Source: Powellomyces hirtus (taxonomy: Eukaryota > Chytridiomycota > Chytridiomycetes > Spizellomycetales > Powellomycetaceae). From it: 64,000 nucleotides of DNA. Positions within the stretch are counted from its first letter, which is position 1. Each line of letters starts with the position of its first letter. The translations under genes and the position numbers were made by a program. Shown in pieces: positions 1 through 29,591 of this stretch. The notes beneath the pieces are model-generated. The model was not told where the DNA came from. It worked only from the letters and a program-made list of their open reading frames with translations, and did no database searches. Location: NCBI GenBank assembly GCA_025526995.1, contig JAHLKG010000002.1, forward strand, positions 992,001 to 1,056,000, read 5' to 3'.

Positions 1-1352
1 AGGGCCATGGAGTGGTCAAACCCAAAGTCAACCCCACCATCTATCCTGACAAATCCGGCCTGATCCACGTTGATCTCTTTGGCCCAGTTTCAACTCCTTC
101 TCTGTCAGGAGCTACCTATTCTCTGGTTATCCTTGACCAAGACACACGTTATTCCAAAAGCTACTTCTTAAAGGGCAAGTCAGCCCATACCGTCCATTCC
201 TGCCTATTGGATTATGCTGCCCTCTACAAAACCCAACGTAGCTATCTTATCAAGCAAGCCCACAAGGATCAAGGCTCTGAATTCCTCAACAAAGTGAATC
301 AGGGTTGGAGTGCTTCTCAATGCATCATCTGGAACACCACGGCTGCTTATTCTTCCTTTCAGTATCCGGTTGAACGTATTTATCGTACCCTTGCGGACAT
401 GGGACGTACACTGCTCCATGCAGCTCATTTCACTCTGGATTTCTGGGCTGAAGCTTGGAATACTGCAAACTATCTACGTAACCGTCTACCGGCCCGTGAA
501 TATACCAAGACACCTTTTGAAGCTTGGACCGGCATTAAACCTAAGCTGGACCATCTTAAACTCATTGGGTGCGCCGCCTATGTAACCCCGGTTCTTATGA
601 AGGACAAGCTCCTTCCACGTTCATGGACTGGCATTCTAGTTGGCTATGGCCTTTCCTCACCTACCTACCGTATTTGGAATCCGGCCACCTCTTCCATTGT
701 GGAAACCCATGACATCCGCTTTGATGAATCTAAATTATTCTGGGACGCAGCTCTTTCCTTGGATCAACTCCAAGGCTTCAGGGTGGCTGAGCTTCCCATT
801 GACAATCCCACTGGCAATGACCTTCCCACGTCTGGCTCTGCCGGCAGCTCCTCTGACGAGTCTTCCTTATCTGAGGATGAGTATGAAGTGGAGAAGATCA
901 CACAGCATTGCCACCATTGTGACAAGCTCCAGTTCTACATCAAATGGAAAGGTTATCCATCTTCTGACAACACTTGGGAAGATGAAGACCGGCTTGATCA
1001 TTGTCACGAACTTCTCAATCAATACCTTGAGGACAATGACTTGGGCAACTCATCACACACCTGACACACCCATGCCTTCCAGACATCTGCTGCTACGTCT
1101 GAAGCCACTACTGTGCCTTGCGATTACGATGTGCCCAATACTCTCAAGCAGGTCCTTGCTTCTCTTCACCGTGTCTCTTGGGAAGCTGCCAGGAAAGCCG
1201 AACTTGACTCTCTGACCTTGAACAACACCTGGTCAGTTGTTGACCGTCCAGCACCCCCCACCAATGTTGTGGATTCCCGCTGGGGCATTTTCGACTTGGG
1301 ATGGACTTCCAACCTTCTCAGGACCCTTTTGGAGGGGGCGCCAGTGCCTCTT
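1..1352 (+). mobile_element. copia-1 internal fragment, copy 1 (left end outside window)
   Basis: Ty1/copia internal sequence containing the integrase core, a chromodomain and the first part of reverse transcriptase. It ends abruptly at 1352, where a gypsy LTR begins after the bases CTCTT. It corresponds to 10468-11817. About nine substitutions and one indel separate the two copies over 1.35 kb, several of them at CpG sites. Confidence 0.85.
12..1352 (+). pseudogene. copia-1 integrase-chromodomain-RT fragment
   Basis: The 12-1064 frame encodes the integrase catalytic core: Asp in the HVDLFGP motif, Asp in KDQGSEF, and a Glu in VERIYRT about 35 residues on. Next comes a proline/serine linker and a chromodomain near residues 295-345, with the aromatic and YIKWKGY core and the TWE motif. 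A TGA at 1062-1064 interrupts the frame. The same frame then continues from about 1113 with an RT N-terminus (AARKAELDSL, NNTW, VVDSRW), which is lost at about 1290 before the catalytic motifs. Here the integrase reads straight through, whereas the second copy has lost one base near 10769. The element cannot be active, since no RT or RNase H is present. Confidence 0.85.
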
Positions 1353-1627
1353 TGTAATAATACTAGGTCCGTTGCCAGAGTCTAGTCTTCTATTCGGGAA
1401 TTCCCTATGTCTAGTTCTACTGTAAGATCTCTGAGCCTTGAATACGCCCTCGTCGGAGTATTCCTACTTTTCTTCTGGACCGCGGGGCGGTCCCGGTCAC
1501 GTGATGGCCATCCGTGGCCATCCCTAAGGTCTAGTACCCTTCGGAATGCTGACGCTAGCATCCATCTCGCGCGGGGTCCTTCCCGACGCATGTCTAGGCT
1601 TAGGTTGGCGAGCCACGCCTCATTACA
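1353..1627 (-). repeat. gypsy LTR (3' LTR of copy 1)
   Basis: 275 bp, from TGTAATAATACTAGG to GCCTCATTACA, with a 6-bp terminal inverted repeat. I see no difference from the LTR at 11818-12092. It contains CACGTG at 1498-1503. Confidence 0.93.
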
Positions 1628-2041
1628 CCCCCCTTAGATTCGCGACTATCTCTTAGGCTCGAATCTCTTCAGCGAGGTGAAGCTTGCCTAAGCCGGGCGG
1701 CGGCGGGTTAACGGATGCTGACGTGGTTGTGCGAAGATGAGGCTGGGGAGGCAGCCCTGGTGCGGGTCGCGTCGCGGTAGTCTCCGGCGGGTAGTATCCG
1801 CCCTTCGTGGTGCGCGAAGTTGTCGGAAAGTCTATTTCTCTCTTCGCAGGGGCCCTAGATGAATCACGAGTAGCTTCCTCCATGCGGATTTCGATAAGTA
1901 ACATCTGCTGCGCTCCGTAGGGGATGAAACACTAACACCTGAATTTCCGAGCGTTCCCAGGCAGATCGAGCCTTTACAAGGTACTGCCCGTTGAATCTCC
2001 CCCTCTCGCTCTTCTTTTCTTTGTAGCTCGACGAACTCACA

Positions 2042-2088
<47 letters not shown>
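1628..2088. other. Non-coding leader between gypsy LTR and antisense RING gene
   Basis: About 460 bp without a convincing ORF. It begins with the purine-tract complement CCCCCCTT. It ends in a (CA)n microsatellite of about 45 bp (2042-2087) that directly abuts the RING start codon. It is the likely promoter and 5' UTR of the antisense gene. The counterpart is 12093-12551, where the CA tract is two bases shorter. Confidence 0.5.
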
Positions 2089-2831
2089 ATGGCTGACACC
2101 CCCAACAACTCTCCTCCCCCCCCCGACACCACCACCACCATGGGCAAGCGCCGGCCCGCCCAACAACTTGCGAAAGGCGCAACCAAGCGGGCCCAGCCCG
2201 CCCGGGTAAGTAGGGGTCGGGGCTCATCCTCGGGTGTGGCAACTCGTCTCATGTTGCCCGTCTTCCTTTGTTACCTACAGGACCCCTCGGTCCATGAAAA
2301 GTCCACCCCCAAGGGGTCGGCCGACTTGCCCGCTTGCTGGAAGTGCCATCTTTTCCGCAAGGGCAAGATGTTCACGTCGGAATGCCACCATCTGGTGTGC
2401 CGGCCCTGCATCGTGGCGGCGGCCGACGACACGGTATGTCCTCCTTTCGCTGAGGGGCGTCCTGATGCCTTCCTAACGGTGTGGTTCCTTTGTTCCTTTG
2501 CTTTCCAGAACGACGGCCCTCAGGGCCAGTTGACGTGCGGCGCCCCCCACTGCGGCCGGGTCCTCTTCTTTGCCGCCATCCCCGCCGGGTGCCAGTTCGC
2601 TGGCTGCAACCATGTTGGAGCGGACCTCCGCATGTTCCCATGCAACCATCTCCACTGCATGGGCCACGTCCGCGCGTAAGTAGTACTCTTCGGCCTGCTG
2701 CTGTCTTACCTGATTAACTCAGCTCTCTTTGCAGCGAGATGAACGTGGCAAATTACACCCCCCTCCGGTGCGGGTTGGGCGACCGGTGCCACGGCAATCG
2801 GTGCCAGTTCTCCTTCACCAAGATTGGTTGA
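2089..2831 (+). CDS. Antisense RING-finger cargo gene of gypsy element, copy 1
   Basis: Four exons: 2089-2205, 2281-2433, 2509-2675 and 2735-2831, encoding about 177 residues. All three introns are 59-75 nt with GTAAGT or GTATGT donors and CAG acceptors, and the frame is kept across each. The N-terminus is Pro/Thr-rich and basic. Exon 2 gives a C3HC4-like RING start (CWKC, then ECHHLVCRPC), completed in exon 3 by a CGAPHC pair. More Cys/His clusters follow (GCQFAGCNH, FPCNHLHC, RCGLGDRCHGNRC). RING domains commonly act as ubiquitin or SUMO E3 ligases. The gene lies inside the gypsy element but on the strand opposite gag-pol. I do not recognise a named family. The ATG sits immediately after a CA repeat. 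Confidence 0.78.
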
Positions 2832-3062
2832 TTAGTTCTCCCCCCCCTCTTTCTTGTATATACTTTCGATTGTTGTCTGTTGCTCCCTTGGGGCCTGGCC
2901 TCCGGGCCGTAATCAAATTCAGTACCAAAATCTCATCGCTGTACTTGCCTTCTCATCGCTGTGCTCCCTTGAGCCTTGTAGCATTTCGTATGCGTCCGCT
3001 GTGTCCAATGTCACTCGGCTTCTTCCCGGCTATGGTGCTCATGGTAGATGCCCTGCATCTCA

Positions 3063-3838
3063 CTTCCCCGTTGGGAAGACCGCCCAGCGGTTCCCTGGCC
3101 ATCGTCCAACGATGCCGGTATCTCACCTAGTGAGGTCTACTGCCTCGCAGTCTTCGGCTCATCGCCCAGCAATCCCGGCATCTCGCCCAGCGAGGTATGC
3201 TGCCCAGCAGCCTTCGGCCATCGTCCAACGATGCCGGCATCTCACCTCGTGAGGTCTACTGCCTCGCAGTCTTTGGCTCATCGCCCAGCGATCCCGGCAT
3301 CTCGTCCAGCGAGGTATGTCGCCCAGCGACCTTCGGCCCATCGTCAAACGATGCCGGTATCTTGGCCGAAGCCCTTCTCTTCCCCTTTGTGTGGGTATGT
3401 ACTGCGGTCATGGTCCCCGCGGGTCTCGAGGTACGCTGCCATGCAAATCTGGTGCCGGTCACCTTGCATCGGCAAGCCGGTCGATGCCCAGCATCACCCT
3501 TCTCACCCAGTGAGGTATGCCGCCCAGCGGCCTTCGGCCCATCGTCAAACGATGCCGGTATCTTGGCCAAAGCCCTTCTCTTCCCCTTCGCGTAGGTATG
3601 TACCACGGCCATGGTCCCCGCGGGTCTCGAGGTACGCTGCCATGCAAATCTGGTGCCGGTCACCTTGCATCGGCAAGCCGTCGGCTCATCGCCCAGCGAT
3701 CCCGGCATCTCACCCAGTGAGGTATGCTGCCCAGCAGCCTTTGGCCATCGTCCAACGATGCCGGCATCTCGCCCAGCGAGGTATGCTGCCCAGCAGCCTT
3801 CGGCCATCGTCCAACGATGCCGGAATCTCGCACTGTAA
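3063..3838. repeat. Array of ~25 three-base-loop mini-hairpins, copy 1
   Basis: Short perfect inverted repeats of the form 5-6 bp stem, 3-nt loop (CCA, CTA, CTC or CAA), 5-6 bp stem occur every 17-25 bases. Examples are CATCGT-CCA-ACGATG, CTCGC-CCA-GCGAG, GCTGC-CCA-GCAGC, GTCGC-CCA-GCGAC and GCCGC-CCA-GCGGC. Three hairpins plus spacers (GTAT or GTCT, CTTCGGC, CCGGCAT) make a ~60-nt unit. A ~118-bp block lacking them is repeated at 3362-3479 and 3561-3678. At equivalent positions the two arms change together and stay complementary. The array lies between the RING gene stop and the pol stop, so it could be the 3' UTR of either transcript. Confidence 0.85.
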
Positions 3839-3892
3839 TGTCCTCTACCTCAAGTAGCATCTCTCTTGTTAATTTACGGTACAGCTCGCTAT

Positions 3893-6800
3893 CTAGGTTC
3901 TCTTACGTCGCCTGGCTGCTAGCCTTTGGCCGCGGTCCTCTCCGGGGTGCTCCCGGAGCCATTCTTCCAGTGCGGTCGTTCCCTTCACGTGTGCATACGG
4001 CTCCCACGTGTTCTGGGTGTTCTCGTAACCTGTCCACTTGACTAAGAACTGCTCGGTGTTCCTGTGCCATCTGGCATTTAGGATCTTGTCCACTTGGTAG
4101 GTCTCCTGACCGTCTTCGTCCTTCTCGGGCTCAGGCGGGGCGGTGATCTGTCTGTACGGGGTACCGCCCGGGTCATGGTAACGTCTCAGAATGCTGACAT
4201 GAAAGACTGGGTGCAACCCGGTGAACTCCTTGGGTAGTTCGAGCTCGTAGGTGTCAGGATGCGGGCCCTTGCCGCGTACTGTGAATGGCCCAATCCATTG
4301 CTCAGCCAGCTTTTTGTTCCTTGTGGTGACGCTGGTAATCGCGATACCCTCGCGATGGAGTAAGACCTTGTCACCCTCTCGGTATGCTTCCGCGTGCTTC
4401 TTGCGGTCGTAGTACTTTGCCTGCTGGTCCTGTGCGTCTCGGAGCCGTTGCTGCACGATGCGACTCACATCGGCGAATTCCTTAATCCGTCTCTCCACGG
4501 CGGTTTGTGCCGATTGCCTTATCATCTCCCCGGGGTTAGGTGCTACCCATTGGTTCAGTACCCGGGGAACGCGGCCTAGGTCAATCTCGAAAGGGGATAG
4601 TCCCGTCGATGTCTGCGGCGTTCGGTTGTAGTTGTACTCGAGGGTGGGGAGTAAACTCTTCCAGTTGGAGCCGGTATAGTCGAGATAGGGGCCCATGATT
4701 CCCTTGATCGTCTTGATGGCGTTCTCCGCCTTGCCGTCGGTCTGTTGGTGTTGTGCCGACGAGAGTTCCTGCTTGACGTCGAGTGCCCGCATCAGGTACC
4801 GCCAGAATTCTGATAGCCACTTGGGGTCCCGATCGCTCACGATGGTGTGGGGTAACCCCGTGTGGCGGAATGCCTGTTCCAGAAAGAGTTGAGCCGTCTC
4901 CTGAGCTGTAGCGCGTGTATTAGTAGGTAGAAGTATCACGCGGCATGAAAGATTGTCAACGATGAGGAGTACGGTGTCCGCCGTCTTGGTCAGTCTCTCG
5001 CCGGTGTGGTGCGAAGGGTTCTTCGTCACGTCAGGCTCTACCCGAGGTTCCCCCCCCTTAGAGCCTGACGTGGGGAAGAATATATCCATGCCGATTTGTT
5101 GCCAACGAGCGTCGGGGATCGGTAAACTGCGGATGAAGCCGATCGGCGCGGCGCGCTTGTGACGTTGGCATGTAGGGCAAGTGCGGACATATTGGTACAC
5201 ATCACGCTCCATGTGAGGCCAATAGTACGACTCCAGAAGTTTGGCGAGCGTCCGTTGTACACCGGAGTGGCCGCCGTTCGCGAGGGAGTCGTGATGGGTC
5301 TGAAGAAGTGGCCCCCGTAGACTGTCGGGGACGTACCGACGGTCGTGGTACATCAAGAATCGGTCCGGAGGGGAGTCCACTGCCCGGAATCGGCGTGCAT
5401 GGCCGGACAGGTTCTCCTGTGGGCCGTCAAGGGTTAGTAGGATGTTTTGGCCAAAATCATCGGATGCGAGCGCTCGGGTCCAGTCCGCATCGGTCGGCAT
5501 GTGCGTCGTTGCGGTTATCTCCGGTTGCACAATGGCGGTGACCACATCGATCTTGGCCTGGCAGGTCGCACACTTGGGGGCGTAAGTCGGGTCGCGACTT
5601 AGGAAGTCGGCGATCGAGTTCCATGTGCCGGGGAGGTATTCCACTGAAAAATCGAACTGTTGGAGGAACTCGACCCAGCCCGCTTGGCGACGTGACAGGT
5701 GGGGTTGTTCCTGAAGGTAGATCAGGGATTTGTGGTCGACAAAAGCACGGAAGGGGCGGCCGATGAGGTAATGGCGGTTGGCGCGTATAGATTTGACCAG
5801 TCCCAGTAGTTCTTGTTCATGTACGGGGTATCAGGTCTCGGCGGGTTGCATCTTGCGGGAGTAGTATGTCACCGGGCGAAGTTGTGGAAGGTTAGCCAAG
5901 CCTGATTTGGTGGTAGGTAGTGGATGAGGGTATGGGAAATCCCCTGCGGCCGGCTGTGCCAGCCATCCACCATAGGCGTAGCCCGATGCGTCGGTAAACA
6001 AGTAGGTGTCAAGCGCCGGGTCGAAATACGCTAGGGTAGGTGCCGAAGAGCATAATTCCTTTAAGCGACTGAACACCTTGTCCTCCTCGTCGCCCCATTG
6101 CCATGGGCGATTGCCGGATTGTAGGTTCGTTAACGGTAGGGTGATCTGTGCATACTCGGGGATGTATTCTTTGACGTAGTTGACGAGGCCCATAAAACTA
6201 AGGAGTTCCAGGGAGTTGGTCGGGCCAGGTCGTTCCCGGACCGCAGTCACCTTGGAGGGGGCGATACTCAGGCCATCCTTGCCGACTCGGTGGCCGCAGA
6301 ACTCGACTTCGTCAACCGCCCATTGACATTTGCTGGGTTTGACGTGGAGGCGATGTTCCGCCAAGGTCTTGAGGACCTCATCGACGTGCTGAATGTGCGA
6401 ACTCATGTCGGTGCTGAATATGAGAATATCGTTGAGGTATGAGATCACGTAGGCGTCGTACTTGTCGCCCAAGAGTTTGTTGGTTAGTCGCTGGAATGTA
6501 GCAGGTGCATTAGTTAAGCCGAAAGGTAGAACATTGTATTCGAAATGTCCAAAACGTGTTCGGAACGCTGTTTTCTCCCTATCTTCCAGTCGGATCATGA
6601 TGCAGTGGTACGCGTCGCGGATGTGGATCGCGGTGAATACCCGCATGTTGACAAGCCTGTCGCGCAGCTCCGAGAGGTTCGGAAGTGGCGTGGCACCCTT
6701 GTGAGTCATCTTGTTCAGTGCCCGGTAGTCAATGCAGCAGCGTAGGCCGCCGTCCTTCTTTGGGGCAAATAGGACGGGCGCGCCCCACGGACTGCGAGAG

Positions 6801-7822
6801 TGTGAGATCCAACCCTTGTCCATTAAATGCTGCATCTGCTGGCCGAGCTCGTCCAGTTTGTCAGGGCTCAAATGCCGGAGTGGCTGCATCACGGGCTTCG
6901 AGCCGGGTTTGAGCCGAATGGTGAAATTGTCCTTGCCTCGGTCCGGAGGCATGCCTGACTGCTCGGTGAATAGCGTCGTGACCTATTTCTCTAGGGTCAG
7001 TCGGAGTGGATGGTCGGCTGCCAGCGCCTCTAGCGGGTCCTCTTGATCTGCCGCCTTGGCTTCAGTGTTGGTGTGGCGTCGTTCCTCCAAGATTGCCCTT
7101 TTCTTGGCGTCGACCGTCCGTACGAATTGAGCCTCTGCGACTGGAATCGCATCTACGATGTGTACCTCGAAAACTCCAGTGATCTCGTCCTTCTTCATCA
7201 AGCGTTTCCATTGCTTGGCCGTGTAGATTCCCTCTGCATTGAGTGCTGGCTTCGCCGGCTGGAATCTGCGAGGCCGTACCTCTCGTGGGGAGGGTAGGCG
7301 GGCGGCGCACGCGGACGGTGCTTCCCAATGGCGGTTGGTCGATTTGGCTCGAAGGCTAAGGGTCTGGCCGTCGTGGTAGAACGTCATCGTTGGAAAGCCC
7401 CCTTGGTCGAAGAGCCCTCGGACGTCCAGCCCCAATATGAATGGCAAGCCCAGTATGGCATCGACCCTGATCGGCACGACCACGAACGGTACGGTATCCT
7501 CCCGGTAAGTGATCTTCTCCTCGGTGAACACCGAGAGGTCCCCACAGGTCATCTTTGTTGCCCCGTAGTTTCCCGCTCTGTCGCCCCACCGGACCTCCAG
7601 CGGAGTTGGAGAGGTGTAGGTCCAGAGGCCGTGTTTGGCGGCCCAAGTGTTGCTGATGATCAGGGTGTTACATCCGGTATCGATTAGGATGCGGGCAAAG
7701 TGCCCTTGTACCTTCCCGTGGACCACAAATGTCTTCCTGTGAATGCGGGGTCCCGGTCTGTCCGTGGGGATCTTGTCTTGCATCCGGGGTTGGGGTACTG
7801 AGACGGTGCAAGCGTTCAGCAC
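3893..7822 (-). pseudogene. gypsy pol, copy 1: PR-RT-RNase H-IN-chromodomain, inactivated
   Basis: Minus-strand order: aspartic protease (LIDTGCNT), reverse transcriptase, start of RNase H (FTDASGYAYGG), zinc-binding integrase N-terminus, integrase core (Asp in GMDIFF, Asp in VSDRDPKW, Glu in DGKAENAIK) and a C-terminal chromodomain (YQVDKIL, FLVKWTGY, NTWEP). Lesions: TAG at 6981-6983 between PR and RT; the first RT catalytic Asp is His (6623-6625); YLDD is YLND (6431-6433); TGA at 5831-5833 just after the RNase H start. The integrase-chromodomain part (3893-5644) is intact. The pol frame begins by overlapping the gag stop by a few bases in another frame, as expected for frameshift expression of gypsy pol. 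Confidence 0.9.
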
Positions 7823-9042
7823 CCGGGGCGAAAATCCGAGCTGTTGACTGAGCCCCCGTCGCTGACCGCCTCGTCTCCGGACCCTTCGGTGATCTCTACA
7901 GGGGCGGCGAACGTCCTATGCTCACCGGCTTTGCCTTTACTTGCTGGGCACCCACGGGTGTAGTGCCCCTTGCCCCCGCAATTGAAGCATTCGTTGCGCT
8001 CCCGGGGTTCATTGTAGATGGTGCGCTCACGGTGTGAAGTCCCTTGGTAGTTGTCCATACCGCGTGTGGGACGGCCTGAGCCGTAGGGTGTGTGGCGCCC
8101 CCGTTCTCGTGTTTGATAGTTCCCTCGGTGGACCTGGGCCGGCTGGACTGCGGCGTACTGACGTCTTCTCCCGTCGGGGGTCACCTGCGCAAGGTCATCC
8201 GCATAGCCTCGAATCTTGTAGCATAACAGGGCATCGTTCTGTAGCTCGGTGATCGGAATCTCGGCGCCGTTGTTCCTCATGATCGCGGTATAGCAGTGGT
8301 CTCGAATGCGCTGGCCAACGTGGTTGGTCGAGAATCCGGTCAAGAAGTAGTTGCGCTCTTGCCGTGGGGTAAGTCGCTCCTTATCGTCGAGCGTTGCGAT
8401 CTGGGCCCAAAGGGTATTGAACTTGGCGATGTACTCCGATATGCTATTAGTGAAAACCAGACGCTTCATCTTTGCCTCCGCGGTGTTTCGTAAGTTGGCA
8501 GGATAGAAGCGGGTGCGGAGTGTCCTTGTGAACTCTTCCAATGTCATGGGCAGGTCGCCGGCATCTCTGAGCATTTGCCACCACTCGTCGGCGGTCTCCT
8601 TGAGGTACCCCGAGATGTGGTCGACATCCCGGTGGTCCGTCCTGAAGTCGGTTGCCTCAAGGTAGCGCGTGTGGACCTTCAAGAACTCATCGACCTTCGA
8701 CACCATTTCTTCACTGTTCCCTTTTCCGTCGAAGTGTGTCAGCTGCTTGCGAAGGTTCTCGCGGCGTTCCTTCTCGGCTTGCATTTGTGCGCGGTTTTCT
8801 TCCGCCAGGATGATGTCGACGTGCGGTGTTGCAACTGCTGGTTGGACTGGGGTTGGAATCCTTGAGAGAAGGGCTTCGAAGCGGACCTCTCCCATTGCGA
8901 TCTGTTCCTGCAGTAGGCGTTGGGTCTCCGCCAATTGTGCAGCCAACATTGCGACGGGGTTGCCGATCGGTGTGTCGACTTCGGGTTCTCCTACTGCCGG
9001 GCTTTCCCCTGCCATTGGGCTGTTCCTGGTGCTACGTGCCAT
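7816..9042 (-). CDS. gypsy Gag, copy 1
   Basis: 408 residues, uninterrupted. The N-terminus is predicted helical (AQLAETQRLLQEQIA). A retrotransposon Gag core follows around residues 90-260 (EWWQMLRDA, FYPANLRN, NYFLTGF). A CCHC zinc knuckle CFNCGGKGHYTRGC lies near the C-terminus and an acidic tail ends the protein. Gag forms the capsid and binds genomic RNA through the knuckle. The chosen ATG is about 28 bases inside the 5' LTR edge and is the first on the transcript. The near-identical copy at 18262-19488 is also open. Confidence 0.9.
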   Translation of the reverse strand: MARSTRNSPMAGESPAVGEPEVDTPIGNPVAMLAAQLAETQRLLQEQIAMGEVRFEALLSRIPTPVQPAVATPHVDIILAEENRAQMQAEKERRENLRKQLTHFDGKGNSEEMVSKVDEFLKVHTRYLEATDFRTDHRDVDHISGYLKETADEWWQMLRDAGDLPMTLEEFTRTLRTRFYPANLRNTAEAKMKRLVFTNSISEYIAKFNTLWAQIATLDDKERLTPRQERNYFLTGFSTNHVGQRIRDHCYTAIMRNNGAEIPITELQNDALLCYKIRGYADDLAQVTPDGRRRQYAAVQPAQVHRGNYQTRERGRHTPYGSGRPTRGMDNYQGTSHRERTIYNEPRERNECFNCGGKGHYTRGCPASKGKAGEHRTFAAPVEITEGSGDEAVSDGGSVNSSDFRPGC

Positions 9043-9060
9043 TGTTGTCGTCTACGGGGT

Positions 9061-9070
9061 GGTGCTACCA
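9061..9070 (-). promoter_or_regulatory. gypsy primer-binding site, copy 1
   Basis: Reading out from the 5' LTR on the minus strand, the first internal bases are TGGTAGCACC. The TGG start is expected for pairing with a tRNA 3' CCA end, and the rest would fit a tRNA ending GGTGCTACCA, possibly initiator Met. The same bases sit at 19507-19516 in copy 2. Confidence 0.6.
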
Positions 9071-9345
9071 TGTAATAATACTAGGTCCGTTGCCAGAGTC
9101 TAGTCTTCTATTCGGGAATTCCCTATGTCTAGTTCTACTGTAAGATCTCTAAGTCCTGAATACGCCCTCGTCGGAGTATTCCTACTTTTCTTCTGGACCG
9201 CGGGGCGGTCCCGGTCACGTGATGGCCATCCGTGGCCATCCCTAAGGTCTAGTACCCTTCGGGATGCTGACACTAGCATCCATCTCGCGCGGGGTCCTTC
9301 CCGACGCGTGTCTAGGCTTAGGTTGGCGAACCACGCCTCATTACA
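9071..9345 (-). repeat. gypsy LTR (5' LTR of copy 1)
   Basis: 275 bp with TGTAAT/ATTACA ends. By eye it differs from the equivalent LTR at 19517-19791 at about seven positions, while the two left-hand LTRs are identical. This fits a different origin for this end. It is followed by TCTCA and copia-1 sequence. Confidence 0.92.
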
Positions 9346-11817
9346 TCTCACCTCTGAAGAAGAACGCAACTTCTACAAGAGGGCCCGTGATCCCCATTAC
9401 CTCCTGTCAATCACGGCTGGCAATACCAATTGTCAGCTTAGTCAGGCCAAACTTCAAGCCACTGCCTTACGATTGGAGGCTTTAAACAAGCGGATCAATC
9501 AGTTGGACTCATCATCTTCTTCAGCCCTTCAGTCTGGCAATAAGAAGAAACAGAAATCATCTCCAGCTGCCAACACTGCACCTGTGCCGACTACTTATTC
9601 TGTCGCAGCTCCAGCCATGTCTGTGCCCCCTAAGAAACCTTCTAAGCGGGACGCTATTCCAGTTAAGGCTACTGTGACTTGTCCCTTTTGCTCTGCTACT
9701 GGCAAACACAACTATTGGGATTGCCTTAGGGCCACAGACTCCCAAAAGCGAGCCTATCGCAAAAAGCGCAAATTGGAATACCACCAGAAGCAACTGGCCT
9801 CCGCTAATGCCATGATGGCTACTTCCTCAGGCCTTCTAGTTGCCTCTACCGCTCCCACCTTTGCCTTGGAAGATTCCGCATCTTGTAAAGCATTTAGAAC
9901 AGCCTCAAATGGCAAACTCAAATGGGTGGTTGATTCCGGCGCCTCTGACCACATGTGCTATCAGGAATCCACCTTCCTACACCTCAAGCCTATCACCCAC
10001 ACTGTGGAAGTGGCTAACGGTGTTATTGTTGACGCTACTGGCTTTGGAGACATTTGAGTGATGTATCAAGTACATGGACTGATCATCCGGGCCGTACTTT
10101 TTGTCCCATCCTTTCACCACAACCTACTCTCTGAGCCTACCTTGTCAAAGCGGAGAATCAATCTTTCTTTCAAGCGTACCCATTGCTCTATGGACCTACC
10201 AGACGGGATCTCTCTTACCATCCCTTGCACGCCATCCGGTCAATTGCCCTTCACCTGCAAACTTAGAATGGCTGCACCGGCCTCCAGCTTGGCACTGGCT
10301 ATTGGGGCTCCCACTATCCTGTCTCTGGGAGACTATCTCCTTTGGCATGCTCGACTTGGTCACCCTTCCTATGACCGCTTCAAAGAGCTGGCCACCACTT
10401 TACCTCTTGCCTTCACTTTACCGCCTTCAGACGACATTCCTCTTTATGCTGAATGTGCCGTCAGCAAGGGCCATGGAGTGGCCAAACCCAAAGTCAACCC
10501 CACCATCTATCCTGACAAATCCGGCCTGATCCACGTTGATCTCTTTGGCCCAGTTTCAACTCCTTCTCTGTCAGGAGCTACCTATTCTCTGGTTATCCTT
10601 GACCAAGACACACGTTATTCCAAAAGCTACTTCTTAAAGGGCAAGTCAGCCCATACCGTCCATTCCTGCCTATTGGATTATGCTGCCCTCTACAAGACCC
10701 AACGTAGCTATCTTATCAAGCAAGCCCACAAGGATCAAGGCTCTGAATTCCTCAACAAAGTGAATCAGGTTGGAGTGCTTCTCAATGCATCATCTGGAAC
10801 ACCACGGCTGCTTATTCTTCCTTTCAGTATCCGGTTGAACGTATTTATCGTACCCTTGCAGACATGGGACGTACACTGCTCCATGCAGCTCATTTCACTC
10901 TGGATTTCTGGGCTGAAGCTTGGAATACTGCAAACTATCTACGTAACCGTCTACCGGCCCATGAATATACCAAGACACCTTTTGAAGCTTGGACCGGCAT
11001 TAAACCTAAGCTGGACCATCTTAAACTCATTGGGTGCACCGCCTATGTAACCCCGGTTCTTATGAAGGACAAGCTCCTTCCACGTTCATGGACTGGCATT
11101 CTAGTTGGCTATGGCCTTTCCTCACCTACCTACCGTATTTGGAATCCGGCCACCTCTTCCATTGTGGAAACCCATGACATCCGCTTTGATGAATCTAAAT
11201 TATTCTGGGACGCAGCTCTTTCCTTGGATCAACTCCAAGGCTTCAGGGTGGCTGACCTTCCCATCGACAATCCCACTGGCAATGACCTTCCCACGTCTGG
11301 CTCTGCCGGCAGCTTCTCTGACGAGTCTTCCTTATCTGAGGATGAGTATGAAGTGGAGAAGATCACACAGCATTGCCACCATTGTGACAAGCTCCAGTTC
11401 TACATCAAATGGAAAGGTTATCCATCTTCTGACAACACTTGGGAAGATGAAGACCGGCTTGATCATTGTCACGAACTTCTCAATCAATACCTTGAGGACA
11501 ATGACTTGGGCAACTCATCACACACCTGACACACCCATGCCTTCCAGACATCTGCTGCTACGTCTGAAGCCACTACTGTGCCTTGCGATTACGATGTGCC
11601 CAATACTCTCAAGCAGGTCCTTGCTTCTCTTCACCGTGTCTCTTGGGAAGCTGCCAGGAAAGCCGAACTTGACTCTCTGACCTTGAACAACACCTGGTCA
11701 GTTGTTGACCGTCCAGCACCCCCCACCAATGTTGTGGATTCCCGCTGGGGCATTTTCGACTTGGGATGGACTTCCAACCTTCTCAGGACCCTTTTGGAGG
11801 GGGCGCCAGTGCCTCTT
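9346..11817 (+). mobile_element. copia-1 internal fragment, copy 2 (gag to RT start)
   Basis: Ty1/copia sequence lying between two gypsy copies. It runs from within gag (9346) to the RT N-terminus (11817) and ends in CTCTT before the LTR at 11818. The same CTCTT follows the right LTR at 19792-19796, so the second gypsy copy inserted here with a 5-bp target-site duplication. Confidence 0.85.
9346..11817 (+). pseudogene. copia-1 gag-PR-IN-chromodomain-RT fragment
   Basis: The frame runs from the gypsy LTR into gag, with no start codon of its own. It contains a zinc-knuckle-like motif CPFCSATGKHNYWDC, the protease motif VVDSGASDHMC, a pre-integrase segment (LLWHARLGHPSYDRF), the integrase core, the chromodomain and the RT start. 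Breaks: in-frame TGA at 10055-10057 within the protease; a one-base deletion near 10769 shifting integrase from the 10058-11050 frame to the 10864-11529 frame; TGA at 11527-11529 between chromodomain and RT. The RT is lost after VVDSRW. Both TGA codons sit where an Arg CGA is plausible, so CpG decay is likely. Confidence 0.88.
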
Positions 11818-12092
11818 TGTAATAATACTAGGTCCGTTGCCAGAGTCTAGTCTTCTATTCGGGAATTCCCTATGTCTAGTTCTACTGTAAGATCTCTGAG
11901 CCTTGAATACGCCCTCGTCGGAGTATTCCTACTTTTCTTCTGGACCGCGGGGCGGTCCCGGTCACGTGATGGCCATCCGTGGCCATCCCTAAGGTCTAGT
12001 ACCCTTCGGAATGCTGACGCTAGCATCCATCTCGCGCGGGGTCCTTCCCGACGCATGTCTAGGCTTAGGTTGGCGAGCCACGCCTCATTACA
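11818..12092 (-). repeat. gypsy LTR (3' LTR of copy 2)
   Basis: 275 bp with TGTAAT/ATTACA ends; no difference seen from 1353-1627. Preceded by target-site duplication CTCTT. Confidence 0.93.
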
Positions 12093-12506
12093 CCCCCCTT
12101 AGATTCGCGACTATCTCTTAGGCTCGAATCTCTTCAGCGAGGTGAAGCTTGCCTAAGCCGGGCGGCGGCGGGTTAACGGATGCTGACGTGGTTGTGCGAA
12201 GATGAGGCTGGGGAGGCAGCCCTGGTGCGGGTCGCGTCGCGGTAGTCTCCGGCGGGTAGTATCCGCCCTTCGTGGTGCGCGAAGTTGTCGGAAAGTCTAT
12301 TTCTCTCTTCGCAGGGGCCCTAGATGAATCACGAGTAGCTTCCTCCATGCGGATTTCGATAAGTAACATCTGCTGCGCTCCGTAGGGGATGAAACACTAA
12401 CACCTGAATTTCCGAGCGTTCCCAGGCAGATCGAGCCTTTACAAGGTACTGCCCGTTGAATCTCCCCCTCTCGCTCTTCTTTTCTTTGTAGCTCGACGAA
12501 CTCACA

Positions 12507-12551
<45 letters not shown>
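12093..12551. other. Leader of antisense RING gene, copy 2
   Basis: Counterpart of 1628-2088: purine-tract complement, no ORF, then a (CA)n tract ending at the RING ATG. Confidence 0.5.
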
Positions 12552-13294
12552 ATGGCTGACACCCCCAACAACTCTCCTCCCCCCCCCGACACCACCACCA
12601 CCATGGGCAAGCGCCGGCCCGCCCAACAACTTGCAAAAGGCGCAACCAAGCGGGCCCAGCCCGCCCGGGTAAGTAGGGGTCGGGGCTCATCCTCGGGTGT
12701 GGCAACTCGTCTCATGTTGCCCGTCTTCCTTTGTTACCTACAGGACCCCTCGGTCCATGAAAAGTCCACCCCCGAGGGGTCGGCCGACTTGCCCGCTTGC
12801 TGGAAGTGCCATCTTTTCCGCAAGGGCAAGATGTTCACGTCGGAATGCCACCATCTGGTGTGCCGGCCCTGCATCGTGGCGGCGGCCGACGACACGGTAT
12901 GTCCTCCTTTCGCTGAGGGGCGGCCTGATGCCTTCCTAACGGTGTGGTTCCTTTGTTCCTTTGCTTTCCAGAACGACGGCCCTCAGGGCCAGTTGACGTG
13001 CGGCGCCCCCCACTGCGGCCGGGTCCTCTTCTTTGCGGCCATCCCCGCCGGGTGCCAGTTCGCTGGCTGCAACCATGTCGGAGCGGACCTCCGCATGTTC
13101 CCATGCAACCATCTCCACTGCATGGGCCACGTCCGCGCGTAAGTAGTACTCTTCGGCCTGCTGCTGTCTTACCTGATTAACTCAGCTCTCTTTGCAGCGA
13201 GATGAACGTGGCAAATTACACCCCCCTCCGGTGCGGGTTGGGCGACCGGTGCCACGGCAATCGGTGCCAGTTCTCCTTCACCAAGATTGGTTGA
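12552..13294 (+). CDS. Antisense RING-finger cargo gene of gypsy element, copy 2
   Basis: The same four-exon structure as 2089-2831, shifted by 10463 bp, with all splice sites kept and no stop or frameshift in the exons. The only exon difference I noticed that changes the protein is Lys to Glu in STPxGSAD; others are silent or intronic. The gene stays open in both copies while pol in each copy has several inactivating lesions. That is suggestive of separate maintenance, but with so few differences it is not proof. Confidence 0.78.
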
Positions 13295-13525
13295 TTAGTT
13301 CTCCCCCCCCTCTTTCTTGTATATACTTTCGATTGTTGTCTGTTGCTCCCTTGGGGCCTGGCCTCCGGGCCGTAATCAAATTCAGTACCAAAATCTCATC
13401 GCTGTACTTGCCTTCTCATTGCTGTGCTCCCTTGAGCCTTGTAGCATTTCGTATGCGTCCGCTGTGTCCAATGTCACTCGACTTCTTCCCGGCTATGGTG
13501 CTCATGGTAGATGCCCTGCATCACA

Positions 13526-14301
13526 CTTCCCCGTTGGGAAGACCGCCCAGCGGTTCCCCAGCCATCGTCCAACGATGCCGGTATCTCACCTAGTGAGGTC
13601 TACTGCCTCGCAGTCTTCGGCTCATCGCCCAGCAATCCCGGCATCTCGCCCAGCGAGGTATGCTGCCCAGCAGCCTTCGGCCATCGTCCAACGATGCCGG
13701 CATCTCACCTCGTGAGGTCTACTGCCTCGCAGTCTTTGGCTCATCGCCCAGCGATCCCGGCATCTCGTCCAGCGAGGTATGTCGCCCAGCGACCTTCGGC
13801 CCATCGTCAAACGATGCCGGTATCTTGGCCGAAGCCCTTCTCTTCCCCTTCGCGTGGGTATGTACTGCGGCCATGGTCCCCGCGGGTCTCGAGGTACGCT
13901 GCCATGCAAATCTGGTGCCGGTCACCTTGCATCGGCAAGCCGGTCGATGCCCAGCATCACCCTTCTCACCCAGTGAGGTATGCCGCCCAGCGGCCTTCGG
14001 CCCATTGTCAAACGATGCCGGTATCTTGGCCAAAGCCCTTCTCTTCCCCTTCGCGTAGGTATGTACCACGGCCATGGTCCCCGCGGGTCTCGAGGTACGC
14101 TGCCATGCAAATCTGGTGCCGGTCACCTTGCATCGGCAAGCCGTCGGCTCATCGCCCAGCGATCCCGGCATCTCACCCAGTGAGGTATGCTGCCCAGCAG
14201 CCTTCGGCCATCGTCCAACGATGCCGGCATCTCGCCCAGCGAGGTATGCTGCCCAGCAGCCTTCGGCCATCGTCCAATGATGCCGGAATCTCGCACTGTA
14301 A
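13526..14301. repeat. Array of mini-hairpins, copy 2
   Basis: Counterpart of 3063-3838. Most stems are perfect. Single changes break pairing in a few (CATTGT-CAA-ACGATG near 14005 and CATCGT-CCA-ATGATG near 14275), both consistent with CpG transitions. Confidence 0.85.
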
Positions 14302-14355
14302 TGTCCTCTACCTCAAGTAGCATCTCTCTTGTTAATTTACGGTACAGCTCGCTAT

Positions 14356-17300
14356 CTAGGTTCTCTTACGTCGCCTGGCTGCTAGCCTTTGGCCGCGGTC
14401 CTCTCCGGGGTGCTCCCGGAGCCATTCTTCCAGTGCGGTCGTTCCCTTCACGTGTGCATACGGCTCCCACGTGTTCTGGGTGTTGTCGTAACCTGTCCAC
14501 TTGACTAAGAACTGCTCGGTGTTCCTGTGCCATCTGGCATTTAGGATCTTGTCCACTTGGTAGGTCTCCTGACCGTCTTCGTCCTTCTCGGGCTCAGGCG
14601 GGGCGGTGATCTGTCTGTACGGGGTACCGCCCGGGTCATGGTAACGTCTCAGAATGCTGACATGAAAGACTGGGTGCAACCCGGTGAACTCCTTGGGTAG
14701 TTCGAGCTCGTAGGTGTCAGGATGCGGGCCCTTGCCGCGTACTGTGAATGGCCCAATCCATTGCTCAGCCAGCTTTTTGTTCCTTGTGGTGACGCTGGTA
14801 ATCGCGATACCCTCGCGATGGAGTAAGACCTTGTCACCCTCTCGGTATGCTTCCGCGTGCTTCTTGCGGCCGTAGTACTTTGCCTGCTGGTCCTGTGCGT
14901 CTCGGAGCCGTTGCTGCACGATGCGACTCACGTCGGCGAATTCCTTAATCCGTCTCTCCACGGCGGTTCGTGCCGATTGCCTTATCATCTCCCCGGGGTT
15001 AGGTGCTACCCATTGGTTCAGTACCCGGGGAACGCGGCCTAGGTCAATCTCGAAAGGGGATAGTCCCGTCGATGTCTGCGGCGTTCGGTTGTAGTTGTAC
15101 TCGAGGGTGGGGAGTAAACTCTTCCAGTTGGAGCCGGTATAGTCGAGATAGGGGCCCATGATTCCCTTGATCGTCTTGATGGCGTTCTCCGCCTTGCCGT
15201 CGGTCTGTTGGTGTCGTGCCGACGAGAGTTCCTGCTTGACGTCGAGTGCCCGCATCAGGTACCGCCAGAATTCTGATAGCCACTTGGGGTCCTGATCGCT
15301 CACGATGGTGTGGGGTAACCCCGTGTGGCGGAATGCCTGTTCCAGAAAGAGTTGAGCCGTCTCCTGAGCTGTAGCGCGTGTATTAGTAGGTAGAAGTATC
15401 ACGCGGCATGAAAGATAGTCAACGATGAGGAGTACGGCGTCCGCCGTCTTGGTCAGTCTCTCGCCGGTGTGGTGCGAAGGGTTCTTCGTCACGTCGGGCT
15501 CTACCCGAGGTTCCCCCCCCCTTAGAGCCTGACGTGGGGAAGAATATATCCATGCCGATTTGTTGCCAACGAGCGTCGGGGATCGGTAAGCTGCGGAGGA
15601 AGCCGATCGGTGCGGCGCGCTTGTGACATTGGCATGTAGGGCAAGTGCGGACATATTGGTACACATCACGCTCCATGTGAGGCCAATAGTACGACTCCAG
15701 AAGTTTGGCGAGCGTCCGTTGTACACCGGAGTGGCCGCCGTTCGCGAGGGAGTCGTGATGGGTCTGAAGAAGTGGCCCCCGTAGACTGTCGGGGACGTAC
15801 CGACGGTCGTGGTACATCAAGAATCGGTCCGGAGGGGAGTCCACTGCCCGGAATCGGCGTGCATGGCCGGACAGGTTCTCCTGTGGGCCGTCAAGGGTTA
15901 GTAGGATGTTTTGGCCAAAATCATCGGATGCGAGCGCTCGGGTCCAGTCCGCATCGGTCGGCATGTGCGTCGTTGCGGTTATCTCCGGTTGCACAATGGC
16001 GGTGACCACATCGATCTTGGCCTGGCAGGTCGCACACTTGGGGGCGTAAGTCGGGTCGCGACTTAGGAAGTCGGCGATCGAGTTCCATGTGCCGGGGAGG
16101 TATTCCACTGAAAAATCGAACTGTTGGAGGAACTCGACCCAGCCCGCTTGGCGACGTGACAGGTGGGGTTGTTCCTGAAGGTAGATCAGGGATTTGTGGT
16201 CGACAAAAGCACGGAAGGGGCGGCCGATGAGGTAATGGCGGTTGGCGCGTATAGATTTGACCAGTCCCAGTAGTTCTTGTTCATGTACGGGGTATCAGGT
16301 CTCGGCGGGTTGCATCTTGCGGGAGTAGTATGTCACCGGGCGAAGTTGTGGAAGGTTAGCCAAGCCTGATTTGGTGGTAGGTAGTGGATGAGGGTATGGG
16401 AAATCCCCTGCGGCCGGCTGTGCCAGCCATCCACCATAGGCGTAGCCCGATGCGTCGGTAAACAAGTAGGTGTCGAGCGCCGAGTCGAAATACGCTAGGG
16501 TAGGTGCCGAAGAGCATAATTCCTTTAAGCAACTGAACACCTTGTCCTCCTCGTCGCCCCATTGCCATGGGCGATTGCCGGATTGTAGGTTCGTTAACGG
16601 TAGGGCGATCTGTGCATACTCGGGGATGTATTCTTTGATTTAGTTGACGAGGCCCATAAAACTAAGGAGTTCCAGGGAGTTGGTCGGGCGAGGTCGTCCC
16701 CGGACCGCAGTCACCTTGGAGGAGGCGATACTCAGGCCATCCTTGCCGACGCGGTGGCCGCAGAACTCGACTTCGTCAACCGCCCATTGACATTTGCTGG
16801 GTTTGACGTGGAGGCAATGTTCCGCCAAGGTCTTGAGGACCTCGTCGACGTGCTGAATGTGCGAATTCATGTCGGTGCTGAATATGAGAATATCGTCGAG
16901 GTATGAGATCACGTAGGCGTCGTACTTGTCGCCCAAGAGTTTGTTGGTTAGTCGCTGGAATGTAGCAGGTGCATTAGTTAAGCCGAAAGGTAGAACATTG
17001 TATTCGAAATGTCCAAAACGTGTTCGGAACGCTGTTTTCTCCCTATCTTCCAGTCGGATCATGATGCAGTGGTACGCGTCGCGGATGTCGATCGCGGTGA
17101 ATACCCGCATGTTGACAAGCCTGTCGCGCAGCTTCGAGAGGTTCGGAAGTGGCGTGGCATCCTTGTGAGTCATCTTGTTCAGTGCCCGGTAGTCAATGCA
17201 GCAGCGTAGGCCGCCGTCCTTCTTTGGGGCAAATAGGACGGGCGCGCCCCACGGACTGCGAGAGTGTGAGATCCATCCCTTGTCCATTAAACGCTGCATC

Positions 17301-18268
17301 TGCTGGCCAAGCTTGTCCAGTTCGTCAGGGCTCAAATGCCGGAGTGGCTGCATCACGGGCTTCGAGCCGGGTTTGAGCTGAATAGTGAAATTGTCCTCGC
17401 CTCGGTCCGGAGGCATGCCTGACTGCTCGGTGAATAGCGTCGTGACGTATTTCTCTAGGGTCAGTCGGAGTGGATGGTCGGCTGCCAGCGCCTCTAGCGG
17501 GTCCTTTTGATCTACCGCCTTGGCTTCAGTGTTGGTGTGGCATCGTTTCTTGGCGTCGGCCGTCCGTACGAATTGAGCCTCTGCGACTGGAATCGCATCT
17601 ACGATGTGTATCTCGAAACCTCCAGTGATCTCGCCCTTCTTCATCAAGCGTTTCCATTGCTTGGCCGTGTAGATTCCCTCTGCATTGAGTGCTGGCTTCG
17701 CCGGCTGGAATCTGCGAGGCCGTACCTCTCGTGGGGAGAGTAGGCGGGCGGCGCACGCGGACGGTGCTTCCCAATGGCGGTTAGTCGATTTGGCTCGAAG
17801 GCTAAGGGTCTGGCCGTCATGGTAGAACGTCATCGTTGGAAAGCCCCCTTGGTCGAAGAGCCCTCGGACGTCCAGCCCCAATATGAATGGCAAGCCCAGT
17901 ATGGTATCGACCCTGATTGGCGCGACCATGAACGGTACGGTATCCTCCCGGTAGGTGATCTTCTCCTCGGTGAACACCGAGAGGTCCCCACAGGTCATCT
18001 TTGTTGCCCCGTAGTTTCCCGCTCTGTCACCCCACCGGACCTCCAGCGGAGTTGGAGAGGTGTAGGTCCGGAGGCCGTGTTTGGCGGCCCAAGTGTTGCT
18101 GATGATCAGGGTGTTACATCCGGTATCGATTAGGATGCGGGCAAAGTGCCCTTGTACCTTCCCGTGGACCACAAATGTCTTCCTGTGAATGCGGGGTCCC
18201 GGTCTGTCCGTGGGGATCTTGTCTTGCATCCGGGGTTGGGGTACTGAGACGGTGCAAGCGTTCAGCAC
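14356..18268 (-). pseudogene. gypsy pol, copy 2: PR-RT-RNase H-IN-chromodomain, inactivated
   Basis: Protease and RT are one open frame (18268-16640, 542 residues) with LIDTGCNT, FTAIDIRD and SYLDD intact. A TAA at 16640-16642 stops it in the RT connection. A TGA at 16295-16297, shared with copy 1, stops it again in early RNase H. The integrase frame (16108 down) shifts near 15515, where the C run is one base longer than in copy 1, and resumes to the chromodomain and stop at 14356. An 18-bp in-frame deletion relative to copy 1 lies near 17540. Confidence 0.9.
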
Positions 18269-19488
18269 CCGGGGCGAAAATCCGAGCTGTTGACTGAGCC
18301 CCCGTCGCTGACCGCCTCGTCTCCGGACCCTTCGGTGATCTCTACAGGGGCGGCGAACGTCCTATGCTCACCGGCTTTGCCTTTACTTGCTGGGCACCCA
18401 CGGGCGTAGTGCCCCTTGCCCCCGCAATTGAAGCATTCGTTGCGCTCCCGGGGTTCATTGTAGATGGTGCGCTCACGGTGTGAAGTCCCTTGGTAGTTGT
18501 CCATACTGCGTGTGGGACGGCCTGAGCCGTAGGGTGTGTGGCGCCCCCGTTCTCGTGTTTGATAGTTCCCTCGGTGGACCTGGGCCGGCTGGACTGCGGC
18601 GTACTGACGTCTTCTCCCGTCGGAGGTCACCCGCGCAAGGTCGTCCGCATAGCCTCGAATCTTGTAGCATAACAGGGCTTCGTTCTGTAGCTCGGTGATC
18701 GGAATCTCGGCGCCGTTGTTCCTCATGATCGTGGCATAGCAGTGGTCTCGAATGCGCTGGCCGACGTGGTTGGTCGAGAATCCGGTCAAGAAGTAGTCGC
18801 GCTCTTGCCGTGGGGTAAGTTGCTCCTTATCGTCGAGCGTTGCGATCTGCACCCGAAGGGTATTGAACTTGGCGATGTACTCCGATATGCTATTAGTGAA
18901 AACCAGCCGCTTCATCTTTGCCTCCGCGGTGTTTCGTAAGTTGGCAGGATAGAAGCGGGTGCGGAGTGTCCTTGTGAACTCTTCCAATGTCATGGGCAGG
19001 TCGCCGGCATCTCTGAGCATTTGCCACCACTCGTCGGCGGTCTCCTTGAGGTACCCCGAGATGTGGTCGACATCCCGGTGGTCCGTCCTGAAGTCGGTTG
19101 CCTCAAGGTAGCGCGTGTGGACCTTCAAGAACTCATCGACCTTCGACACCATTTCTTCACTGTTCCCTTTTCCGTCGAAGTGTGTCAGCTGCTTGCGAAG
19201 GTTCTCGCGGCGTTCCTTCTCGGCTTGCATTTGTGCGCGGTTTTCTTCCGCCAGGATGATGTCGACGTGCGGTGTTGCAACCGCTGGTTGGACTGGGGTT
19301 GGAATCCTTGAGAGAAGGGCTTCGAAGCGGACCTCTCCCATTGCGATCTGTTCCTGCAGTAGGCGTTGGGTCTCCGCCAATTGTGCAGCCAACATTGCGA
19401 CGGGGTTGCCGATCGGTGTGTCGACTTCGGGTTCTCCTACTGCCGGGCTTTCCCCTGCCATTGGGCTGTTCCTGGTGCTACGTGCCAT
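18262..19488 (-). CDS. gypsy Gag, copy 2
   Basis: 408 residues, open, with the same Gag core and CCHC knuckle (CFNCGGKGHYARGC) as copy 1 and a handful of substitutions. It sits directly inside the 5' LTR and primer-binding site (19507-19516). Confidence 0.9.
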   Translation of the reverse strand: MARSTRNSPMAGESPAVGEPEVDTPIGNPVAMLAAQLAETQRLLQEQIAMGEVRFEALLSRIPTPVQPAVATPHVDIILAEENRAQMQAEKERRENLRKQLTHFDGKGNSEEMVSKVDEFLKVHTRYLEATDFRTDHRDVDHISGYLKETADEWWQMLRDAGDLPMTLEEFTRTLRTRFYPANLRNTAEAKMKRLVFTNSISEYIAKFNTLRVQIATLDDKEQLTPRQERDYFLTGFSTNHVGQRIRDHCYATIMRNNGAEIPITELQNEALLCYKIRGYADDLARVTSDGRRRQYAAVQPAQVHRGNYQTRERGRHTPYGSGRPTRSMDNYQGTSHRERTIYNEPRERNECFNCGGKGHYARGCPASKGKAGEHRTFAAPVEITEGSGDEAVSDGGSVNSSDFRPGC

Positions 19489-19516
19489 TGTTGTCGTCTA
19501 CGGGGTGGTGCTACCA

Positions 19517-19791
19517 TGTAATAATACTAGGTCCGTTGCCAGAGTCTAGTCTTCTATTCGGGAATTCCCTATGTCTAGTTCTACTGTAAGATCTCTGAGC
19601 CTTGAATATGCCCTCGTCGGAGTATTCCTTCTTTTCTTCTGGACCGCGGGGCGGTCCCGGTCACGTGATGGCCATCCGTGGCCATCCCTAAGGTCTAGTA
19701 CCCTTCGGGATGCTGACGCTAGCATCCATCTCGCGCGGGGTCCTTCCCGACGCGTGTCTAGGCTTAGGTTGGCGAGCCACGCCTCATTACA
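19517..19791 (-). repeat. gypsy LTR (5' LTR of copy 2)
   Basis: 275 bp with TGTAAT/ATTACA ends, followed by target-site duplication CTCTT at 19792-19796. Confidence 0.93.
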
Positions 19792-23271: not shown

Positions 23272-23524
23272 TGTTAGCACGAACAGACTCTGTCATCGAG
23301 TCACAACTGCGCCATCGCAGGGCGTATCCTATGCCACTACGATGAGCCACGCGATCACGTGCAAACCACGTGATCAACTCCGATATAAGTAGTTTTCCTT
23401 CCATACTTAATATATCGGTGGGGACTTGTCTCTTTTTCTCCAATAGAGCGTACTTCGTTGTTTTGCCCAGTCAACTACCCTGAAAGCTTCCTCAACTATC
23501 TACCCAGATACTCTCAGACCAACA
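23272..23524 (+). repeat. copia-3 LTR (5')
   Basis: 253 bp, TGTTAGCACG to CTCAGACCAACA. Two CACGTG sites at 23356-23361 and 23367-23372. Confidence 0.93.
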
Positions 23525-28690: not shown

Positions 28691-28788
28691 AATACGCAAT
28701 GAGAGCGCGCCTACAGAAGCACACCGAGCTCAAGTGTTACTCGCTGAATGTCAGGAGAATTACTCACAACGCTGGCTTACCTTGGCAT

Positions 28789-29382: not shown

Positions 29383-29591
29383 CATCTTCGCCTTGCCCGA
29401 ACCTGACAACTACACCGGCACATAGTTAGAGCTTACGCCTCATTTGCGCGGATCTCATAGACGTACCCTAGCCATTCCTCGTATTCTCAAAGTATAATAA
29501 ATGGGGTGTGTGGGGTGTGTGCGTGGGTGTGTGTAGTAAGAAGTAGATAGAGCAACTCTCTCATTGACAGACTGACAGGTCTGAGTGGGGG

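Follow-up and report, generated by a model that had tools for sequence, protein, structure and literature searches.

Matched arms in a hairpin array of a Powellomyces hirtus chromovirus point to possible selection on RNA structure

An LTR retrotransposon of the chytrid Powellomyces hirtus carries a tandem row of short hairpins, flanked on one side by the stop codon of pol and on the other by the 3' end of an antisense zinc-finger gene. The stems differ from unit to unit, and the two arms of each stem stay matched. Our favoured explanation, held tentatively and at a little below an even chance on the basis of sequence comparisons among copies, is that the arms stay matched because selection acts on the hairpins as RNA structures, in the stretch that separates pol from the 3' LTR. 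The array would then be a set of short RNA hairpins in a chromovirus, non-coding and multiplied in tandem. Selection on the RNA during the life cycle of the element would keep the arms paired, and the units of this redundant array would also turn over through duplication and loss. Selection is ahead of its closest rival, the copying of one arm from the other, but not by far, since both fit the pattern of shared and private changes. Selected RNA structure and arm-copying were the two alternatives named in the original prediction, and they are the ones that survive best. The window referred to below is the whole stretch of 64,000 nucleotides that was analyzed (contig JAHLKG010000002.1, positions 992,001 to 1,056,000, forward strand).

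The hairpin array and its host element

The array is better delimited at 3046–3838, where 27 tandem hairpin slots were found, 25 of them perfect, and the roughly 25 mini-hairpins predicted here are thus real. Stems of 5–6 bp were observed as predicted. The loops are mostly 3 nt long. Perfect stems of at least 5 bp around a 3-nt loop start 24 times in kilobase 3 of the window, and the single perfect stem with a 4-nt loop (3063–3078) brings the total to 25 perfect hairpins; the slots at 3160 and 3301 are imperfect in the window copy. Another 22 such 3-nt-loop stems begin in kilobases 13–14, where a second array copy (13509–14301) is located inside a second element copy (11818–19791), and each of the remaining 1-kb bins of the window contains at most five. 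Units A, B and C, of about 20 bp apiece, give a period near 60 bp, and Tandem Repeats Finder reported periods of 59–60, 119 and 201, in agreement with the predicted spacing of about 20 bp and higher period of about 60 bp. The three stems given as examples in the original prediction (GCTGC/GCAGC, GTCGC/GCGAC and GCCGC/GCGGC) are all present, and eleven different stems were read in the window array rather than the predicted ten. A search of the window against Rfam 15 gave no matches at the gathering scores of the families.

Two spacers of about 130 bp divide the array into three hairpin sections. In the first section (3046–3353) the number of ~60-bp units differs among copies, the middle section (3483–3554) holds 4 hairpins, and the last section (3688–3819, or 3688–3838 with the final, unpaired unit) holds 7 perfect hairpins. 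Neither spacer 1 (3355–3482) nor spacer 2 (3556–3687) contains a 5-bp stem with a 3-nt loop. Towards its end each has a single 5-bp stem around a 4-nt loop (3463–3476 and 3664–3677, respectively), which is of a different kind from the array stems.

The host of the array is a Ty3/gypsy chromovirus of 7993 bp on the minus strand. Domain matches on this strand identified gag with a Ty3-type capsid and a CCHC zinc knuckle (7816–9042), aspartyl protease (6983–7822), reverse transcriptase with RNase H (5831–6952) and integrase with H2C2, rve, SH3_Tf2-1 and chromodomain matches (3893–5644), which is the order gag, protease, RT/RNase H and integrase expected for Ty3/gypsy. The chromodomain is placed at the C-terminus of the integrase (Chromo, 1.3e-11, residues 516–563 of 583), and the integrase stop codon lies about 55 bp from the array start. 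The element is bounded on the minus strand by a 3' LTR of 275 bp (1353–1627, TG...CA) and a 5' LTR (9071–9345), which form a direct repeat with 97.5% identity, and a purine run on the minus strand adjoining the 3' LTR (1628–1635) is the probable polypurine tract. In addition to the paired LTRs, target-site duplications were identified: TCTCA flanks the copy at G000:C2:976629-984697 and CTCTT flanks the second element of the window. Five of the six best named matches to the reverse transcriptase were Powellomyces hirtus proteins (four 84–94% identical, one 72%).

The flanks of the first element in the window are mismatched. TCTCA, on the right, matches the target-site duplication at G000:C2:976629-984697, and CTCTT, on the left, matches that of the second element, a pattern expected from unequal crossing-over between insertions. 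Window positions 1–9345 and 10467–19791 form a tandem duplication, which is 98.7% identical over a 9.3-kb match. Elsewhere in the window, 21250–23280 and 26112–29429 encode Copia-type pol proteins (RVT_2) whose chromodomain follows the SH3-like domain of the integrase and precedes the reverse transcriptase, and the gag ORFs nearby match the Ty3-type capsid.

The antisense zinc-finger gene (2089–2831, plus strand) encodes 177 aa after removal of the introns 2206–2280, 2434–2508 and 2676–2734, and ends with a stop codon at 2829–2831. Just upstream is a (CA)n microsatellite (2038–2087), of which the (CA)25 run stops one base before the start codon and is perhaps part of the promoter. The GT/AG intron ends are retained in 32–34 of 34 copies and the frame is stop-free to codon 150 in 26 of 34. 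The introns presumably survive because they are left unspliced in the sense RNA. A domain search with the antisense protein gave only RING-like matches that were weak and fell below the cut-off. Non-CpG changes in at least four copies comprised 19 non-synonymous and 14 synonymous changes, and private ones 47 and 17, respectively. The evidence for protein-level selection on this gene is modest, since the shared changes are without a clear synonymous bias.

The sole protein-search match of the antisense gene (2089–2679) was P0001, the 'oncoid' of 'Powellomyces chytrid fungus MELD virus 1'. This protein of 197 aa appears, by eye, to include a translated intron, and the deposited viral gene may therefore be an unspliced fragment of the present retrotransposon. 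Two diverged versions of the zinc-finger gene coexist in the genome. With a 56-aa exon of the old copy L062 as the query, 88 matches were obtained, of which 18 were 73–100% identical and the other 70, including the two of the window at 43%, were 36–58% identical. Four loci (L005, L024, L027 and L028) combine the L062-type gene version with arrays that are 95–97% identical to that of the window, which suggests that array and antisense gene have probably been reshuffled between element subfamilies.

Copies of the array across the genome

The array occurs in dozens of copies in the genome (29.3 Mb, 60 contigs). Two patterns of a linker plus a variable arm gave 176 and 269 matches genome-wide, as compared to none for the reversed controls. 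A total of 54 arrays were extracted (one, L030, without its left flank), ranging from 306 to 1090 bp with flanks and most commonly 832–834 bp. They vary both in unit number, in steps of about 60 bp, and in spacer number. From these arrays 1487 units were parsed; 224 were dropped because they resembled spacers, stood at the array end or had at least three mismatched pairs, which biases the set towards paired units, and of the 1263 kept, 944 were perfect at all five pairs. The number of distinct perfect stems over the 54 arrays was 15. The loops had been predicted to be constant, but several sequences occur across the 1263 hairpins (CCA 851, CTC 154, CAA 115, CTA 65, CTT 48 and others 30).

Among 20 chromovirus-related loci of about 2–6 kb each (L044–L063), the array was found in L060, L061 and L062; the hairpin count showed no comparable dense cluster in the remaining 17. 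L062 retains the array layout, with its longer pieces about 72–80% identical. Locus L063 (G000:C33:25700-31600) is 97% alike at the pol end and 94% in the LTR, and has a different 3' region and no array. In IMG/VR the pattern was present in 5 contigs, which is about the chance level by estimate, the stems in two of these sequences (L078 and L080) were unrelated to the array stems, and the integrase was without a relative.

The copies also bear on whether the array encodes a repeat protein in a 269-aa plus-strand frame, a reading that we reject as highly improbable. The stop-free run of 269 aa was equalled by only 2 of 200 mononucleotide shuffles. However, in the 45 copies where a start was found, the first stop fell at codon 269 in 13 and elsewhere in 30, and the frame remained open to the end of the extract in L003 and to codon 309 in L026. 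The frame had no family matches. The distribution of variants over the three codon positions was 25/36/37 for those shared by at least two copies and 48/46/39 for private ones, and this lack of bias indicates that the array is not coding.

Matched arms between stem types and among copies

The predicted joint change of the two arms was confirmed for the differences between stem types. All 75 cells of the 15 types taken from perfect slots are paired, whereas 500 shuffles gave 70.3% (sd 3.1) and sliding the arms gave no more than 60%; because the types were hand-picked as perfect (14 slot majorities and one shared variant), this result shows the variety of matched stems and not their rate. All five stem pairs show changes on both sides among the 15 types, which are not independent events since the array units share ancestry. 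Of 28 units parsed from the column majority of 24 equal-length copies, 22 were perfect. Four of the other six are spacer look-alikes, one is the end unit, which does not pair, and one is a slot mixing two stem types, which occur there in similar numbers and are each perfect alone.

Within slots, the variants of these 24 copies are mostly confined to a single arm and are often changes from CG to TG or CA, which are common in resident copies, as from cytosine methylation. Both arms of CpG pairs were changed in 12 cases, against an expectation of 9.3 for independent arms, and five of the 12 represent one stem-type replacement. Broken pairs, counted with L071 omitted here and in the slot majorities, number 2–12 of 137 per copy and climb with all non-stem differences (Spearman 0.64). 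No correlation with private non-stem changes alone was observed in the 24 copies (r=0.13, p=0.55). CpG changes show no depletion in stems (13 private and 19 shared, as compared to 25 and 16 in non-stem positions, p=0.10), and 19 of 20 columns with CpG stem changes in at least four copies are uncompensated, which we read, without tree mapping, as probable repeated decay. The counts suggest that resident copies decay neutrally, without clear compensation.

Non-CpG changes inherited by many copies behaved differently. Uncompensated stem variants of this class numbered 37 private, 10 in two to three copies and 2 in at least four copies, as compared to 90, 43 and 27 outside the stems. The Fisher test for depletion in stems, private changes against those in at least four copies (p=0.016), is modest and depends on one cell with a count of two. 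Each segment was represented by 42 to 53 copies in this comparison; the four divergent copies (L061, L062, L066 and L073, also omitted from the set of 1263 hairpins) were then dropped, and badly aligned slots were removed. With the divergent copies retained, the counts were 59, 22 and 4 in stems and 157, 49 and 38 outside, and one of the four stem columns changed in at least four copies was an outer pair beyond the 5-bp stem. The private non-CpG stem columns scored as compensated numbered 11 with the divergent copies, and 1 without these and the badly aligned slots.

The other four non-CpG stem columns changed in at least four copies make up two compensated pairs. Among the 42 to 53 copies per segment, the pair in the right slot had both changes in 10 of 10 variant copies, and that in the left slot had both in 9 of 11 and a single one in 2. 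On a tree of the pol flank, which was of sufficient length in 44 of the 54 arrays, the change from C.G to T.A in the right slot arose once, in a clade of 9 that all carry both changes, whereas the left-slot pair takes 5 changes by parsimony, among them a single-arm state private to one copy. In 25 equal-length copies, all 8 non-CpG stem columns shared by at least four copies fall in four compensated pairs, two of which represent one stem-type swap (the GCTGC/GTCGC slot) that is probably a whole-unit exchange.

Uncompensated arm changes in other genomic copies, which the original prediction had named as evidence against itself, were thus found for private and CpG changes in resident copies, but not for the non-CpG changes inherited by many copies, which are depleted in stems or compensated. 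Since shared uncompensated non-CpG stem changes are rare and resident decay is uncompensated, matching seems to be enforced at propagation, and we conclude with moderate confidence that the propagating lineage either restores or requires matched arms, and that this ceases once a copy has inserted. The independent compensated events that would speak for selection are few, some of the stem swaps resemble whole-unit exchange, and with about 27 redundant hairpins selection on any single pair must be weak.

If the array were a neutral tandem repeat, old palindromic units would have been multiplied, and mirrored CpG hypermutation would mimic matched changes from C.G to T.A. CpG transitions are prominent in decay, and both-arm transitions of this kind connect CTCGC/GCGAG to CTCAC/GTGAG and GCCGC/GCGGC to GCTGC/GCAGC. 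However, compensated differences are also found at non-CpG pairs (the outer pair A.T/G.C, the loop-closing pair T.A/C.G and pair 2 of the C unit, T.A/C.G). Among the slot majorities the end unit alone is unpaired and half-changed types are never fixed, some of which chance would be expected to leave. We consider a neutral origin of the matched arms unlikely.

A serious rival, though a less probable one than selection, is that the nascent strand folds back during reverse transcription and copies one arm from the other, such that every new insertion begins with matched arms and structural selection is unneeded. The compensated changes with few single-arm intermediates, as in the right slot on the tree, are consistent with such a process. 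The parts of PMC8794818 considered here report that template switching in DNA replication creates and maintains perfect RNA hairpins, and the perfect stems and one-step compensated changes described there resemble those of the array. That account concerns DNA replication and RNA genes, whereas here the copying would need reverse transcription. Both-arm CpG changes near chance make ordinary DNA replication an unlikely copying step, and since resident DNA is without clear compensation, template switching during replication is disfavoured and any copying step would sit in reverse transcription. Of the by-products mentioned in the same parts of PMC8794818, inverted loops are missing (no TGG loops among the 1263 kept hairpins) and extended stems are rare (two L081 hairpins reach 7 bp). 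Furthermore, the remainder of the element has no excess of perfect hairpins with a 3-nt loop. Transition counts failed as a discriminator between selection and arm-copying, as 24 of 27 shared non-stem changes were also transitions.

Strand, candidate roles and related systems

The folding energy of the array was better than that of 20 of 20 dinucleotide shuffles on each strand (z -6.3 for plus and -4.0 for minus), although these shuffles lose the tandem repetition. The mean local pairing probability of the mini-hairpins was 0.68 on the plus strand and 0.38 on the minus strand, and higher on the plus strand in 8 of 8 arrays. Shuffles of the linkers sometimes reached the plus-strand value (4 of 40 and 2 of 40 in two arrays), and composition and the G-free loops therefore account for much of the plus preference. 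The global folding energy was lower for the minus strand than for the plus strand, and the roughly symmetrical counts of wobble-preserving changes gave no strand signal. By folding, the plus strand, that is, the antisense transcript, is predicted to form the mini-hairpins better than the minus strand.

Under selection on the RNA array, the likeliest molecule would be this plus-strand transcript, with the array as a structured 3' UTR of the zinc-finger gene. Such a transcript would have to extend about 1 kb further. The array lies downstream of a gene on either strand, with pol on one and the zinc-finger gene on the other; a structured 3' UTR was among the candidate roles of the original prediction. 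We regard it as possible, though clearly short of probable, that a redundant, modular row of mini-hairpins has arisen in an LTR retrotransposon as the structured 3' UTR of its intron-bearing antisense gene, in which shape alone is selected. Two to three dozen interchangeable hairpins would then drift in stem sequence as units are gained and lost. The second choice, which we treat as a lead, would be the genomic RNA, for example with the array as a multivalent site for the Gag knuckle via NNG loops. In either molecule the array would serve RNA stability, export or packaging. Retroviral nucleocapsid knuckles favour exposed G in loops, and on the minus, genomic strand 1233 of 1263 hairpins have the loop UGG, GAG, UUG, UAG or AAG.

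The array is located between two convergent genes and its symmetry belongs to both strands, as would also be expected of a DNA-level role, either as palindromic binding sites or as a bidirectional terminator or insulator between pol and the zinc-finger gene. However, stems that differ widely in sequence with a constant symmetry are ill-suited to a sequence-specific protein, and 5-bp arms are too short for stable cruciforms. A function of the DNA itself is in our view improbable.

By its sequence features, the layout of the element is nearest to that of the Retand lineage among plant Ty3/gypsy elements. The parts of PMC11963269 considered here describe a long region between pol and the 3' LTR with antisense ORFs, tandem repeats in about half of the elements, and a proposed DNA-binding antisense protein. 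The present element shares the antisense ORF and the tandem repeats in this region. It is yet not a Retand, because the TRP28 and non-chromovirus characters are absent: the Retand antisense ORF carries TRP28 (PF04195), whereas the present protein lacks this domain and is encoded by a spliced zinc-finger gene, and Retand is a plant non-chromovirus, as opposed to a chromodomain element in a chytrid host. The present repeats are compensated hairpins, and the word 'hairpin' is absent from the main text of PMC11963269.

A second likeness is to the short palindromic repeats of Volvox organelle DNA, for which the parts of PMC2670323 considered here describe short stem-loops with a recurrent loop sequence and degenerate nuclear copies with stem mismatches. 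Double-hairpin elements of Allomyces mtDNA, cited in the same source, are a further parallel. The Volvox and Allomyces palindromes are mainly organellar and are described there as selfish DNA, whereas the present repeats are arrayed in tandem and belong to an LTR element of the nuclear genome. The literature searched, mostly excluding subscription papers, contained no report of compensated hairpin arrays in LTR elements, and among the papers listed in a search on Powellomyces retrotransposons and in a wider one, no title dealt with such arrays.

The array adds a fungal case of a spliced antisense gene carried by an LTR element. Its repeats conserve shape rather than sequence, in many copies that can be compared, and these copies let selection on RNA structure be told from arm-copying mutation, a question that arises generally in RNA evolution.
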